IMG/VR virus record: IMGVR_UViG_3300042890_001003
Location: 1 to 35,969 of that record
DNA length: 35,969 bases
Strand: one strand, 5' to 3'
Origin: a virus
Shown here: positions 3,949-33,219 of the stretch, piece by piece
Layout of the letters: each line of letters opens with the position of its first letter
Numbering within the stretch: the stretch's first letter is position 1
The notes under the pieces: model-generated
Database searches by the model: none
What the model saw: only the letters and a program-made list of their open reading frames with translations
Told to the model about the DNA's origin: nothing
Program-made: the position numbers and the translations under genes

Positions 3949-3978
3949 TGATTATTCTTAGTAAAGTGTTGTAGTAAG

Positions 3979-4014
3979 TTATTATGGTCCTATTATATCA
4001 CAGAACCATAATAA
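3979..4014 (-). promoter_or_regulatory. Extended -10 promoter inside a 10-bp inverted repeat
   Basis: On the minus strand TGATATAAT (an extended -10, TATAAT at 3997-3992) lies between perfect arms TTATTATGGT and ACCATAATAA (4014-4005 and 3988-3979). No good -35 is seen. The dyad could be an operator or an RNA hairpin at the 5' end of the 296-residue gene's transcript. Confidence 0.5.
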
Positions 4015-24185: not shown

Positions 24186-25181
24186 TCAACCATGGCACGA
24201 AATGCACTCGGATTTATTAGTTTGCACTCCACTTTCTGATCGAATATAGTACAGACTTTTAATGTATGGGTCCAAAAATGCCATCTTATGAACTGAACTA
24301 ATATACTCTTCAGTCTCTTCAGAACTAAAGAACAGATTGATACTTTGAGCTTGATCAATATACTTCTGACGTACTGAAGCCAATCTAATGATCTGAGTTT
24401 GGTCAATTTCAAAAGCAGTCTTGAACACTAACTTCTCTTCGTCAGTAAGCCAATCAACGTGCTGTACTGAACCTTTATGATTGATAATGTCCTTCACTAC
24501 TTCTTCAGAATAAACGTCCTTCTCTTTCATTAGTTTGAGTAAGGTAGGATTCACTCGATCAATCTTTCCAGCTGCAGTATTCTGTACGAAGGCGTTTTTG
24601 TATATTGGTTCAATGCCTTGGCTAACGGAACCACATATCAGAGCAGAACTCAGGTTAGGAGCAATAGCAATTCTGTGAGTATTTCTTACACCATATCCTT
24701 TACACCATTCTGGTTCTCCAAATGCTGAAGCCATCCATTGAGAAGCTCTTAACGATTCATCATGAAGATGTTTGAAGATTTCTGTATTCTTCAGATTAGC
24801 TTCGAATGATTCAAATGCAATATTGTGTTCTTGGAGATATGTGTGGAATCCTAACAATCCTAATCCTAGAGCTCGGCTTTTAGTAGCAAATCGTACTACC
24901 TTTTCCATCCCAGTAATTTTACTACCAATATTGATTAGGTCTTGATTCACACAATCAAGAAATACTGTTGCATCAAATACCGCAGTAGTATCTTTCCACT
25001 CATCATAGAGAGAAGCATTCATTGATGATAATACGCAACTAAAGGTATGGTCGTCATCAGAGAACAATTGTATTTCTGAACAATTGTGTACCAATATGTC
25101 ATTGGCAAAAAAATTATGATTATCTTCTACCGATATGTCATAAACGTCTTCTTCATAATCTAAATATTCAATTGCTATCAT
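24186..25181 (-). CDS. nrdA: Intein C-fragment fused to NrdA C-terminal half
   Basis: 331 residues: Int-C (1-33) then the NrdA C-extein (34-331). The extein starts CSEIQLF, i.e. the catalytic NLCxE cysteine and Glu (E. coli C439, E441). Further active-site residues are present: FSCVLSS (C462 partner), SLYYIRS (the Tyr-Tyr radical relay) and the C-terminal C-x-x-C in SECISCHG. NrdA reduces ribonucleotides to deoxyribonucleotides with NrdB. This half lacks the first conserved cysteine, so it should be inactive until spliced. Its ATG lies eight bases after the HNH gene stop with AAGAGGA upstream. Confidence 0.93.
   Translation of the reverse strand: MIAIEYLDYEEDVYDISVEDNHNFFANDILVHNCSEIQLFSDDDHTFSCVLSSMNASLYDEWKDTTAVFDATVFLDCVNQDLINIGSKITGMEKVVRFATKSRALGLGLLGFHTYLQEHNIAFESFEANLKNTEIFKHLHDESLRASQWMASAFGEPEWCKGYGVRNTHRIAIAPNLSSALICGSVSQGIEPIYKNAFVQNTAAGKIDRVNPTLLKLMKEKDVYSEEVVKDIINHKGSVQHVDWLTDEEKLVFKTAFEIDQTQIIRLASVRQKYIDQAQSINLFFSSEETEEYISSVHKMAFLDPYIKSLYYIRSESGVQTNKSECISCHG
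25083..25181 (-). other. Split-intein C-fragment (Int-C, 33 residues)
   Basis: Residues 1-33: VYDISVEDNHNFFANDILVHN is intein blocks F and G, with His-Asn at the splice site (HN|C). The +1 residue is the NrdA catalytic cysteine. Very close in pattern to known NrdA and NrdJ split inteins. Confidence 0.92.
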
Positions 25182-25190
25182 GTTATCCTC

Positions 25191-26105
25191 TTAAATATAA
25201 TCTATAGGGTTTAAATCTTTACACCACTTTTGATGTATCTCACGCTTGTATCCAGTTCGTTCTTCTACTATCGGAAATAGATCCTTTCCATAATTGAATC
25301 TATACTTGGACAAAGATTTTGGAAATTGTAAACCAGTTTTCAACATATACACCTTTCTGAAAAATGCCAGTGATGGAATATTCTGCAACTTGTTGCTGAG
25401 TAGTATAAATTCTTGTAAAAACTCTTCGTTTGTTATACCACTAAACCTGCTATTATTTTCGCCATCCGTATTACTAGTAGCGCCACTCCAATCTTCAGTC
25501 AACCTTTCATCATTTATTGAACAATATATACGTTCACCTGTCACCTTATTATAATATGTATGATTTCCTTTAGAATGATGAACCCATTCACCTGATAATA
25601 TTTTTGGATGATTTTTATCAAAAGATCCCATTATATCTCCAGTAATTACACATTTAACTGGAAATGTGTCTTTCCTTGATTCAGAAATCCTTCTTATACC
25701 ATCTTCAGTTTGCCATCCATGATTGTGTCGAAAATCTGAACTATTTTGTTTCATCCAGGCATAAGATGATCTTACCTTATTAGATATTATGGTAGGAATG
25801 CTTCCGTACCTTGGGTTAGTTTTGATGCCGTTTATAATACATCTAACTGCAACAAAATCGCCCCTATCACCATAGGCTTTATATCTCAATCTATGAGCAA
25901 ACAAATGTTCTTCAGGCAATAATACTACTAAATTAGTGTCTATATCAGTTCCACCAACCGATCTCGGAATTATATGATGAACCTCTGTATATAATGAATC
26001 GTATTGTAATCTAAAGTCATGTTGATTGCGTTCTAACATCCTTTTTCTAGGATCAGTATTCTGGCAATGTGAAACAAATTCGTCGTATAATTTTTTATAA
26101 TTCAT
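25191..26105 (-). CDS. Free-standing HNH homing endonuclease in the nrdA break
   Basis: 304 residues. YTEVHHIIPRSVGGTDIDTN, then LVVLLPEEHLFAHRL, is a complete HNH site (H43/H44, N58, H67). The C-terminal region (FLQEFILLSNKLQNIPSLAF and YRFNYGKDLFPIVEERTGYK) looks like a DNA-binding helix-turn-helix. Located exactly between the two halves of the split intein. Presumed to cut intein-less nrdA alleles and spread the split arrangement; the target site cannot be read here. Expression appears limited by an upstream hairpin with a late promoter in its loop. Confidence 0.88.
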   Translation of the reverse strand: MNYKKLYDEFVSHCQNTDPRKRMLERNQHDFRLQYDSLYTEVHHIIPRSVGGTDIDTNLVVLLPEEHLFAHRLRYKAYGDRGDFVAVRCIINGIKTNPRYGSIPTIISNKVRSSYAWMKQNSSDFRHNHGWQTEDGIRRISESRKDTFPVKCVITGDIMGSFDKNHPKILSGEWVHHSKGNHTYYNKVTGERIYCSINDERLTEDWSGATSNTDGENNSRFSGITNEEFLQEFILLSNKLQNIPSLAFFRKVYMLKTGLQFPKSLSKYRFNYGKDLFPIVEERTGYKREIHQKWCKDLNPIDYI

Positions 26106-26106
26106 A

Positions 26107-26148
26107 AAATCTCCTTTAATGATATAGTATTTATAATAAAGGAGATTT
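26107..26148 (-). promoter_or_regulatory. RBS-sequestering hairpin with late promoter in the loop
   Basis: Perfect 12-bp arms AAATCTCCTTTA (26148-26137, minus strand) and TAAAGGAGATTT (26118-26107). The second arm contains the HNH gene's ribosome site (AAAGGAG) two bases before the ATG. The 18-base loop holds TATAAATA (26135-26128). Transcripts from upstream would fold and hide the site; late transcripts would start near 26122, lose the first arm and be translated. This is the T4 I-TevI type of control. Confidence 0.85.
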
Positions 26149-26160
26149 CACTACACAGAA

Positions 26161-27300
26161 CTATTTCAATAGCAGAATATCGTTTTCTTGAAGTTGGCTT
26201 GCTTCGACGTATCCTCTATTCTCAGTGAATACCTTATGACATGGAGTACATTTTATAAACTTGCCAGTCCGTTTATCTGTAATTTTCATGAGTTTTGCAT
26301 TACGTCTCATCTGAGCGGACTTGGTAATTTTCTTCCACTCACCCACACCACTTTCTACATTATACGACCAAACCTTCCAATTTTCAACATCATCATTTTT
26401 ACCTAGGTAATTATTCAAACCTTCCATAGATACTTCAATCTCACCACTCATATCACCTTTGATATTGATTCTAGTGTCGCCCGATAAACACAAGTTAGAT
26501 GCCTTTACTGTAAGGCCCAAGTCTTTGTACATTTGAGGATTTTGGCGATTTACTTTATCGATGAACTCAAAGTATCCTTTACCAGTAATCATTTTAAGTT
26601 TCAATGCTTTCTGATATCGTTCAATTGCGTCAGGATCTCCTGCTTCTAATCTAGCAATGAACGCGTCAGTAACATTCCAACCAATATTAGCATCATCAGG
26701 TTGTTTGTTAATATAGTTAACTAATTCAAAGAAATCTGGGTGGTCAATTTCAATATAGCCAGCCCATGCTCCTCTACGTTGTGAACCTTGGCTAACGTCT
26801 CTCGACATTTGAACGTAATCTTTGAATACAGGAAGTACTCCAGAAGCACTACCTTTAATGCCCGAGATTTTAGAACCTCTAGGTCTAATACCTCCCAAGT
26901 AACTAGAAGTACCAAATCCATTCTTTGAAAGAATAGCAGCTTCTGTTTGTGAGTTATAGAATGAGAAAATAGAATCTCCTACTACTCCTCCTGAACAAGA
27001 AACAGGACAACCAAATCCAGTACCCATATTAGACAATACAGGAGTCGAAGCTGCTAACCAACCGTTCCATAATAGATTGAAGAATTTAGTTTCCCATTCA
27101 GCAGGATTACTTGTATACGAAGCAGCATGACTAGCCACTCTTGTATATACGGATTTCAAGTCTGGATGAGATGGAGTCAAGTAGCTACCTTTAAGCATCT
27201 GCCATGCAGCAGTAGTACACCAGTTAGGTAATAATCCTTGTTCTTGAAGGAGTTTACGTTCTTCACCTAATTCTTCATAAATTGATAATTCATTCACCAT
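26161..27300 (-). CDS. nrdA: NrdA N-terminal half fused to intein N-fragment
   Basis: 379 residues: NrdA N-extein (1-270) and Int-N (271-379). Family marks: LAASTPVLSNMGT, GCPVSCSGGVVGDS (first active-site Cys, E. coli C225), SKNGFGTSSYLGGIRPRG, and the ending TVKASNL, which is cut just before the catalytic Cys. No ATP-cone is present; spliced product would be about 568 residues, short for NrdA. The ATG at 27300 has TGAGGAAA upstream. A TTGCTT-17-TATAAA match precedes it. The ORF ends with the intein fragment, which shows the break is not a random frameshift. Confidence 0.93.
   Translation of the reverse strand: MVNELSIYEELGEERKLLQEQGLLPNWCTTAAWQMLKGSYLTPSHPDLKSVYTRVASHAASYTSNPAEWETKFFNLLWNGWLAASTPVLSNMGTGFGCPVSCSGGVVGDSIFSFYNSQTEAAILSKNGFGTSSYLGGIRPRGSKISGIKGSASGVLPVFKDYVQMSRDVSQGSQRRGAWAGYIEIDHPDFFELVNYINKQPDDANIGWNVTDAFIARLEAGDPDAIERYQKALKLKMITGKGYFEFIDKVNRQNPQMYKDLGLTVKASNLCLSGDTRINIKGDMSGEIEVSMEGLNNYLGKNDDVENWKVWSYNVESGVGEWKKITKSAQMRRNAKLMKITDKRTGKFIKCTPCHKVFTENRGYVEASQLQENDILLLK
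26164..26490 (-). other. Split-intein N-fragment (Int-N, 109 residues)
   Basis: Residues 271-379: block A CLSGDTRINIKG with the nucleophilic Cys1, and block B GKFIKCTPCHKVFTENRGYV with T-x-x-H (TPCH). It ends LQENDILLLK and stops at the position where natural split inteins break (before block F). No endonuclease domain remains in cis. Confidence 0.92.
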
Positions 27301-27326: not shown

Positions 27327-27334
27327 TATAAATA
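27327..27334 (+). promoter_or_regulatory. Late promoter TATAAATA for the plus-strand nuclease
   Basis: Exact T4 late consensus, oriented toward the GIY-YIG-like gene at 27419, with a predicted leader of about 79 nt. It lies in the 5' region of nrdA, which runs the other way. Confidence 0.7.
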
Positions 27335-27357: not shown

Positions 27358-27421
27358 GTTAGTCACGGATTGCACTCCTACTAACTCTAAACATTCTATC
27401 AATAATCAGGAGACTATTATG
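27358..27421 (+). promoter_or_regulatory. Structured 5' leader of the plus-strand nuclease
   Basis: Arms GTTAGT (27358-27363) and ACTAAC (27380-27385) can pair. CTCCT (27375-27379) can instead pair with the AGGAG ribosome site (27408-27412). The leader aligns with that of the second GIY-YIG-like gene (32135-32200), where the arms are GTTACT/AGTAAC: a compensatory change. Confidence 0.6.
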
Positions 27422-28258
27422 TCCAGCACAACTATATATACACCATTCACTTATTGTATCACATTTCTCCCAACAGGGCAACGATACTATGGTGTTCGAT
27501 ATGCAAAAGGTTGTCATCCTTCTCAACTTTGGACGACCTACTTCACTTCATCAAAAATAATATCCAATCTTATAGAAGAATATAGCAAAGATTCATTCAC
27601 CTTTGAAGTTCGAAAAACATTTATCAATAAAGATTCTGCTCTATATTGGGAAACAAAATTCCTTACAAAAATAAATGCAGCAAACCATCCAGAATGGCTC
27701 AATGGTCATAATGGCGATCTAAAGTGGAATAATGTTGGTGGATATAAACTCACCGAAAAAACAGTATCCAATATGAGAAAACCAAAATCAGAATCTCATA
27801 AACTAAATATGAGAACACCAAAATCTAAAGAACGGAAACTTTCAGAAAGAACCAAATGTTTTGAGAAAACAGGATATTACTCTAATTTTGAAAATCCAGA
27901 TATTATTCAAAAATGCAAAGATTCGTATTTTCAAAATACTGGATATACTCATAATTCAAAAAATCCAGAAACTATTCAAAAGAGATCAGATAGTTATTTT
28001 GAAAAAACGGGATATGCTAACCCCTCAAAAAATCCAGAAGTGTTAGCACACCAATATGATTCGTATTTTCAAAATACTGGATATACTCACCCAAGCCTCA
28101 ATCCAGAAGTTCAAGAAAGAAAAATCCAAACCTATAAAGACACATGCTCTAAAAGACCTCCTATAAAATGCCCCTATTGCGATGTTTCTGGCAAAGGAGG
28201 CATAATGGGTAGATGGCACTTTGATAATTGTAAATTTAAACCCTTACCAACTGAATGA
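27419..28258 (+). CDS. GIY-YIG-like homing endonuclease with tandem repeats
   Basis: 279 residues from the ATG at 27419 (AGGAG six bases upstream). N-terminal nuclease-like domain: FTYCITFLPTGQRYYGVRYA, SQLWTTYFTSSK, DSFTFEVRKTF and WETKFLTKI; the GIY is degenerate, the YYG and later Glu are kept. Residues 148-236 are about four 23-residue repeats (TGYxxPSxNPE), a type of DNA-binding repeat known in homing enzymes. A C-terminal finger uses C251, C254, H267, C271. Inserted between nrdB and nrdA against the local direction; its end overlaps the nrdB end by 15 bp. Confidence 0.82.
   Translation: MSSTTIYTPFTYCITFLPTGQRYYGVRYAKGCHPSQLWTTYFTSSKIISNLIEEYSKDSFTFEVRKTFINKDSALYWETKFLTKINAANHPEWLNGHNGDLKWNNVGGYKLTEKTVSNMRKPKSESHKLNMRTPKSKERKLSERTKCFEKTGYYSNFENPDIIQKCKDSYFQNTGYTHNSKNPETIQKRSDSYFEKTGYANPSKNPEVLAHQYDSYFQNTGYTHPSLNPEVQERKIQTYKDTCSKRPPIKCPYCDVSGKGGIMGRWHFDNCKFKPLPTE
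27854..28126 (+). repeat. Four tandem 69-nt coding repeats
   Basis: In-frame units of 23 codons with the core (F/Y)F(E/Q)(K/N)TGYxxxSxNPE. The string GATTCGTATTTTCAAAATAC recurs exactly at two sites, so the copies are fairly recent duplications. Confidence 0.8.
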
Positions 28259-31438: not shown

Positions 31439-32134
31439 CTATTCCTCTATACATTGATTGATATGCAAATCGTAATAATATTTATATTTATATTTCTTAT
31501 TACAAATTGGACAAAATAAATATGGTTTATTTTTCTTAGTTTCTTTTATTTTTTCAATAACCCAGTCTATTTGACTTGGGTTCGTCACACCATACTTTTC
31601 GTGTATAGTTTTTTTTCCATTAGAAATTCTTAATGACGTATGCTCTTCAGATTGCTTTCCGTATACAAAACCAGACATTCCTTTATTCCAAGGGACTCTA
31701 CCTTGAGCCGCTAATGATATATTTTTACGATGATTGTCTGATTTTACTTTACCGCTTAATGCAATTGATATATTTTCATTCCACTCATCATCGTGAACAC
31801 GACCTATATTTTTAAACTTAGTTCCACCATTATGCTTATTTATCCACATATCATTAGCGGCAGCATCAAATTTAGTCAGTATTTTAGTTTCCCACGCTAG
31901 TGTTTGCTCTACAGTAGTAAAGACTTTTCTTATTTGATAATCAAAAGAATCGATACCGTATTCACTTATTAATTTGTGTATTTCTTTGGATGATGTGAAA
32001 TACGTATTCCACAGTTGAGATGGATTTGCTATTTTATTTGTACTATTTGCATAACTGGATCCATAATACAATTGTCCTGTTACTTTGAATTTTAAAATAT
32101 ATGTATACGGTATATAAATACTTTTGCTGATCAT
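31439..32134 (-). CDS. GIY-YIG-like homing endonuclease with NUMOD3 and zinc finger
   Basis: 231 residues from the ATG at 32134 (AAGGAG upstream). IPYTYILKFKVTGQLYYGSS, SQLWNTYFTSSKEI, DSFDYQIRKVF and WETKILTKF align with the plus-strand nuclease at 27419, so the two are paralogues. Then NISIALSGKVKSDNHRKNIS with GRVPWNKG (NUMOD3-like DNA-binding), HEKYGVTNPSQ, and a finger using C208, C211, H224, C228. Inserted between two conserved phage genes. The shared leader suggests common translational control. Confidence 0.8.
   Translation of the reverse strand: MISKSIYIPYTYILKFKVTGQLYYGSSYANSTNKIANPSQLWNTYFTSSKEIHKLISEYGIDSFDYQIRKVFTTVEQTLAWETKILTKFDAAANDMWINKHNGGTKFKNIGRVHDDEWNENISIALSGKVKSDNHRKNISLAAQGRVPWNKGMSGFVYGKQSEEHTSLRISNGKKTIHEKYGVTNPSQIDWVIEKIKETKKNKPYLFCPICNKKYKYKYYYDLHINQCIEE
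31479..31492 (-). promoter_or_regulatory. Two overlapping late-type promoters
   Basis: TATAAATATAAATA on the minus strand, i.e. TATAAATA twice, 42 bp before the ATG at 31437. They lie in codons for YKYKY of the nuclease, so chance composition is possible, but position and orientation suit late expression of the next gene and the spanins. Confidence 0.5.
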
Positions 32135-32200
32135 TAGATTACTCCTTGTATTCTTGTTAGTATGGTTAGAGTTACTGGGATGTAGGAGTCCGCGAGTAAC
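32135..32200 (-). promoter_or_regulatory. Structured 5' leader of the minus-strand nuclease
   Basis: Arms GTTACT (32200-32195) and AGTAAC (32176-32171) can pair; CTCCT of the upstream part (32188-32184) can pair with the AGGAG ribosome site (32146-32142). Aligns with the leader at 27358-27421 (GTTAxTCxCGGA, CTCCTAC, TAACTCTAA blocks). Confidence 0.6.
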
Positions 32201-32241
32201 TTTTTTCATTTATTAAATTTCCTTGTTGGAGTTCTTCTTTA

Positions 32242-33211: not shown

Positions 33212-33219
33212 TATTTATT
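33212..33219 (-). promoter_or_regulatory. Late-type promoter element AATAAATA
   Basis: In TAATAAATAT on the minus strand, 28 bp before the ATG at 33184, overlapping the stop of the preceding gene. Same string as at 4253. Confidence 0.45.

Follow-up and report, generated by a model that had tools for sequence, protein, structure and literature searches.

A putative late-expression switch, combining a ribosome-binding site hairpin with a T4-type promoter motif, at an HNH homing endonuclease gene in a split nrdA intein

In a stretch of viral DNA of 35,969 nt (IMG/VR record IMGVR_UViG_3300042890_001003, hereafter the window), the element ahead of an HNH homing endonuclease gene is very probably a time switch for this endonuclease, of the type known from T4 I-TevI and Aeh1 mobE. 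Our case draws on features that can be read in the sequences, i. e. the anatomy of the element, its conservation with different arms, a predicted folding difference, the enrichment of a promoter motif and the imitation of a DNA target. We infer late transcription, a block of translation and repression at the HNH gene, which would act as follows: Read-through RNA from upstream of nrdA would carry both arms of a hairpin; on this long RNA the hairpin would cover the Shine-Dalgarno sequence and leave the endonuclease untranslated, and the start sites of both nrdA halves would stay open. Late in infection, a phage-modified RNA polymerase would initiate at the motif TATAAATA in the hairpin loop, and since the resulting RNA would lack the 5' arm, its Shine-Dalgarno sequence would be exposed. 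Finally, an imitation of the nrdA target beside or within the hairpin would probably be bound by the endonuclease, which would thereby close the promoter of its own gene.

The genes of the locus lie on the minus strand. In addition to nrdB (29239-28244), nrdA is present as two open reading frames that carry intein halves, with the endonuclease gene in between. The N-terminal half (26161-27300; Pfam Ribonuc_red_lgN/lgC and Intein_splicing, and alignment with three relatives) contains the N-intein part (26164-26490), which starts with CLSGDT, and the C-terminal half (24186-25181; half of Pfam Intein_splicing, and alignments) contains the C-intein part (25083-25181), whose final residues are VHN and after which the C-extein starts with CSEI. 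The two Intein_splicing halves reach 32.5 and 33.7 bits, each slightly below the cut-off of 35.8 for the whole domain, and the intein has Cys at its start and HN/Cys at its end. The intein parts on the flanking nrdA halves thus bear out the proposal of the earlier note that the HNH gene sits inside a split intein of nrdA. The endonuclease gene itself (25191-26105, 304 aa) matches Pfam HNH at the cut-off; the active-site residues H43-H44, N58 and H67 are invariant, and the phrog_655 homing endonuclease profile matches 11/11 aligned HNH relatives. A sigma-70-like promoter in the N-intein (26387-26359, minus strand, 11/12) was considered as a source of early RNA and rejected, as it is not common to the relatives. 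Two further homing endonuclease-like genes were seen in the window. One of them, located between nrdB and nrdA but on the plus strand (27419-28258), is GIY-YIG/SegE-like and includes a DUF7487 part; TATAAATA precedes its ATG by about 90 nt (27327-27334). The other is a SegE-like GIY-YIG homing endonuclease gene at 31439-32209 (minus strand).

The gap of 55 nt ahead of the HNH gene holds the arms, the loop motif and the Shine-Dalgarno sequence. The 5' arm AAATCTCCTTTA (26148-26137, minus strand) and the 3' arm TAAAGGAGATTT (26118-26107, minus strand) are perfectly complementary over 12 bp and enclose a loop of 18 nt; with G-U pairs allowed and the A and U of the start codon included, the stem extends to 15 bp. 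As the earlier note had claimed, these arms bury the ribosome-binding site of the HNH gene: AAGGAG (26116-26111) is part of the 3' arm and lies directly ahead of the ATG at 26105. Folding of the 101-nt region gives -23.7 kcal/mol (z -4.2), which was matched by 0/200 shuffled sequences, and the stem score of 31 compares with 16.5 +/- 3.0 in shuffles. The C-terminal half of nrdA has a separate Shine-Dalgarno sequence (GAGGATAAC ATG) that is not within the hairpin. With the late RNA modelled as starting 6 nt past the octamer, folding of the two 5' untranslated regions, which had been suggested as a check, yields a clear predicted difference: the unpaired probability of the Shine-Dalgarno sequence is 0.00 in the long RNA and 0.48 in the late RNA. 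The same holds for ten of the first eleven lineages studied, with predicted accessibilities of 0-0.07 in the long and 0.23-0.92 in the late RNA. Together with the pairing that is retained despite different arms, the predicted structure and accessibility characterise the element as a hairpin that would sequester the Shine-Dalgarno sequence of the endonuclease on long transcripts.

This retention became apparent from relatives at the same nrdA intein site. A search of viral contigs and phage records provided 14 further lineages with a homologous HNH gene, i. e. 15 including the window, which cover two very different NrdA subfamilies and in which the HNH proteins share 33-68% pairwise identity (median 41%); genome contigs contributed distant HNH genes only. 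Twelve of the 15 lineages (the window, L005, L006, L018, L021, L022, L025, L026, L028, Yersinia phage TG1, L079 and L083) show a stem of 12-21 bp that covers the start region, each with p <= 0.01 by shuffling. The arm sequences are mostly lineage-specific, yet complementary within each pair; the exception are L025 and L079, which are 68% identical and have nearly common arms. The motif NATAAATA is found in or at the loop in seven lineages (the window, L005, L006, L018, L026, L028 and TG1), and forms with one mismatch are present in three more (L021, L022 and L025). It occurs in 8/15 upstream regions as compared to 1.2 expected (p 3e-6). Among 250 control genes from the window and the L005 and L018 contigs, a stem score of at least 30 combined with NATAAATA in the loop was seen in the three HNH genes only. 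Since so many lineages possess this stem, in most cases with arms of their own, and the control genes lack the combination, the hairpin is not due to chance. The plan is not universal: among the 15 lineages, L082 and L084 have no good hairpin, and the stem of L024 is weak. L082 has TATAAATA immediately ahead of the ATG; in the hairpin loop of L083 (around 3970-3985), TATAAATA lies in antisense orientation to the HNH gene, and exact NATAAATA is not present in the loop of the L025/L077-L081 group.

The T4-type late promoter motif TATAAATA is located in the loop at 26135-26128, on the minus strand and thus on that of the HNH gene, just as the earlier note had stated. If transcription begins some 6 nt behind the octamer, as is typical of T4, the predicted start is around 26121, close to the 26122 proposed before, and therefore the late RNA would lack the entire 5' arm. 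By itself, TATAAATA is not rare in the AT-rich window (7 occurrences as compared to 5.4 expected), so it is its placement in the loop that counts. In the zone 12-60 nt ahead of genes, and on their strand, the motif NATAAATA is enriched by a factor of 18 for the window (6 vs 7 elsewhere, p 1e-5), 28 for the L005 contig (14 vs 20, p 2e-14) and 10 for the L018 contig (p 2e-8), and tail-fibre and head protein genes are among those behind it. Further NATAAATA octamers of the window, all on the minus strand, are found at 33219, 31492/31486, 6718 and 4260, 20-55 nt upstream of genes of which one encodes a head protein; these octamers are probable late promoters. The T4 late sigma factor gp55 is encoded by phage TG1 and is present in the L021, L026 and L028 contigs. 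Searches for a gp55 homologue gave none in the fragments of the window phage (36, 49 and 40 kb) and none in the contigs of L005 and L018, all of which are possibly incomplete, and gp55 was still absent at E 10 from longer fragments related to the window. Thus, it is the promoter motif alone that suggests the use of a gp55-like factor by the window phage. The gp55 of TG1 (L046 20195-20806, KP202158) is annotated with 115 aa; the open frame extends about 65-70 codons upstream, and the extended frame matches the late-sigma profile almost entirely.

Upstream of the HNH gene, CTGTGTAGTGAAATC (26144-26158, minus strand) resembles the uninterrupted nrdA junction (TTG followed by TGTTCAGAAATA) and is a candidate operator for autorepression. 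For each of 11 lineages, we reconstructed the empty junction from the final codons of the N-extein and the initial ones of the C-extein, and scanned a 15-column position weight matrix (PWM) along the 80 nt that precede the HNH gene, leaving out the lineage under test. Summed over the 11 lineages, the score is 105; windows taken elsewhere in the same loci give 10.4 +/- 9.6 (105 reached in 0/20,000) and column-permuted matrices 7.8 +/- 12.6 (0/500), and matrices displaced by at least 6 bases in either direction gave no comparable signal. In the window, CTGTGTAGTGAAATC scores 9.6, a value reached by 0.7% of the windows of the same locus. Local alignments of the empty site with a lineage's own upstream region were mostly not significant, and only the pooled PWM test was. 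As the idea of an imitation arose after viewing the window, new loci served as a test with predictions fixed beforehand, and on these held-out loci the resemblance to the junction was mostly confirmed: L083 scores 16.6 and shares 14/15 positions with the site of its own nrdA; a score of 9.9 was obtained for the L077-L081 group, which is, however, close to L025 and hence to a member of the matrix; L082 scores 8.0, and L084 reaches 2.0 on the sense strand and at best 6.1 on the reverse strand. The hairpin prediction was borne out in two of these four new groups. Nine HNH relatives outside nrdA have scores of -2.1 to 5.8. In L084, the region 3974-4000 ahead of the HNH ATG follows the start of its own nrdA C-extein (Y-T-E-M-T-L-P-T vs C-A-E-I-T-L-P-T). 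The matches cluster at near-invariant positions of the nrdA codons (TG in Cys, GA in Glu, T in Ile/Val); beyond the columns of the matrix, the central T of a Leu codon is matched as well, in 12/14 cases. The imitations gave no sign of following the site of their own lineage more closely than those of others (9.5 vs 9.2 matches of 15).

By analogy with I-TevI, the imitation is likely an operator through which the HNH enzyme would repress its own gene; the main alternative is that it is the relic of a past insertion. One might ask whether the palindrome is chiefly a DNA operator, with the HNH or another phage protein binding to target-like sequences around the promoter and the RNA hairpin as a by-product of the inverted repeat. 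The upstream regions do resemble the empty nrdA junction far above the controls, L083 agrees with its site in 14 of the 15 positions, and target-like sequences stand in opposite orientations in L018, L022, L024 and L026; two of these, L022 and L026, have hairpin arms that consist of the imitation, again in opposite orientations. However, for the window, L005, L021, L025 and TG1 we find the imitation at the edge of the stem or upstream of it, the arms are made of other sequences and the stem still covers the start region; moreover, Aeh1 mobE has the hairpin but no imitation. We therefore consider a palindrome that serves chiefly as a DNA operator unlikely, and keep to the time switch. Somewhat more speculatively, and as a possibility to which we give nearly as much credit as to its opposite, a single short palindromic element may do three jobs, i. 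e. provide a copy of the target as operator, a late promoter, and an RNA fold that hides the start; in some lineages the arms would be built from the target, so that target recognition and translational control would share bases.

The combination of late promoter and hairpin is established for I-TevI, and a similar form has been reported for I-TevII, I-TevIII, T4 segB and Aeh1 mobE (PMC2988022, PMC3014915). The I-TevI operator resembles the homing site and overlaps the promoter, with I-TevII and I-TevIII as putative further cases (PMC2988022). The T4 sequence shows a hairpin and AATAAATA at the I-TevI gene in the td intron, i. e. a late promoter within the hairpin over the ribosome-binding site. 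In contrast to the window, I-TevI is a GIY-YIG enzyme in a group I intron, its octamer lies in the 5' arm rather than in the loop, and its control also guards RNA splicing, which is irrelevant to an intein. Phage TG1 (KP202158) shares with the window the intein site, a homologous HNH gene, a 12-bp hairpin over the ribosome-binding site and TATAAATA in the loop; it differs in its T4-type NrdA and Straboviridae genome, and the arms are different save for the Shine-Dalgarno sequence and its complement. The closest counterpart is mobE of Aeromonas phage Aeh1, an HNH homing endonuclease gene between nrdA-A and nrdA-B, i. e. interrupting nrdA, for which a late promoter and a hairpin over the ribosome-binding site have been reported (PMC2988022). 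In its sequence we find a 13-bp hairpin over the start region with the late-like octamer TCTAAATA in the loop. The N-terminal HNH domains of the two proteins are homologous (hhalign 97.9%, 76 columns), whereas the remainder cannot be aligned, and homology thus does not extend over full-length MobE. Unlike in the window, the nrdA gene of Aeh1 is simply split, without a split intein, mobE starts 178 nt past the NL/C site, and no imitation of the nrdA junction is found upstream (best score -1.1).

An internal RNase E-like processing site in the Aeh1 mobE transcript (PMC2988022) raises the question whether the hairpin might be an element of mRNA processing or stability (an RNase E or RNase III site) that parts the nrdA-N and HNH messages, with TATAAATA being incidental; since this would leave both the coverage of the start region and the recurrence of the late motif in the loop unexplained, we regard it as very improbable. 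A transcription terminator or a chance inverted repeat, which the AT-rich intergenic gap might suggest, is hardly credible, as no terminator-like match was found at the hairpin, the stem score was reached by 0/300 shuffles, and the plan recurs with new arms in other lineages. For a time switch made of hairpin and late promoter, on the other hand, the comparison provides strong support: stems have been re-formed, loop motifs have been kept, and TG1 encodes gp55. The framing of the earlier note fared less well. It had taken the occurrence of the switch on a free-standing HNH gene inside a split intein as a hint of convergent or exchanged control; a free-standing HNH gene regulated in this way is no novelty, as it was already reported for Aeh1 mobE, and T4 segB is similar. 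It had also held that the same solution in T4 I-TevI limits a toxic nuclease to late infection, which is a supposition even for I-TevI; deletion of the I-TevI hairpin reportedly had no nuclease-related effect on phage viability and resulted in less splicing of the td intron (PMC2988022).

Split inteins with free-standing homing endonucleases are reportedly the subject of the "fractured genes" described by Dassa et al. in 2009, a work to which PMC3653736 and PMC10448857 refer. The locus in the window resembles them, with a split intein in a phage gene of nucleotide metabolism and a homing endonuclease gene between the halves. In the literature that we searched, which covered few subscription journals, no description of a late promoter and ribosome-binding site hairpin for split-intein endonucleases was found. 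Aeh1 already provides an example of an HNH gene in nrdA that is controlled in this manner; what is new here, and the most original feature, is the apparent imitation of the nrdA junction ahead of the endonuclease gene. Our work would extend the T4-type late switch to a family of HNH enzymes in nrdA split inteins, and the phages concerned seem to reach beyond the T4 group. The plan of the switch has been retained while the letters of the sequence change. The split intein makes it clear why a switch is needed: as one message has to supply the downstream half of NrdA already early, the intervening gene must be silenced without its neighbour. The imitation of the target offers a testable operator, and it hints at which bases of nrdA the enzyme may read, mainly those at invariable codon positions.
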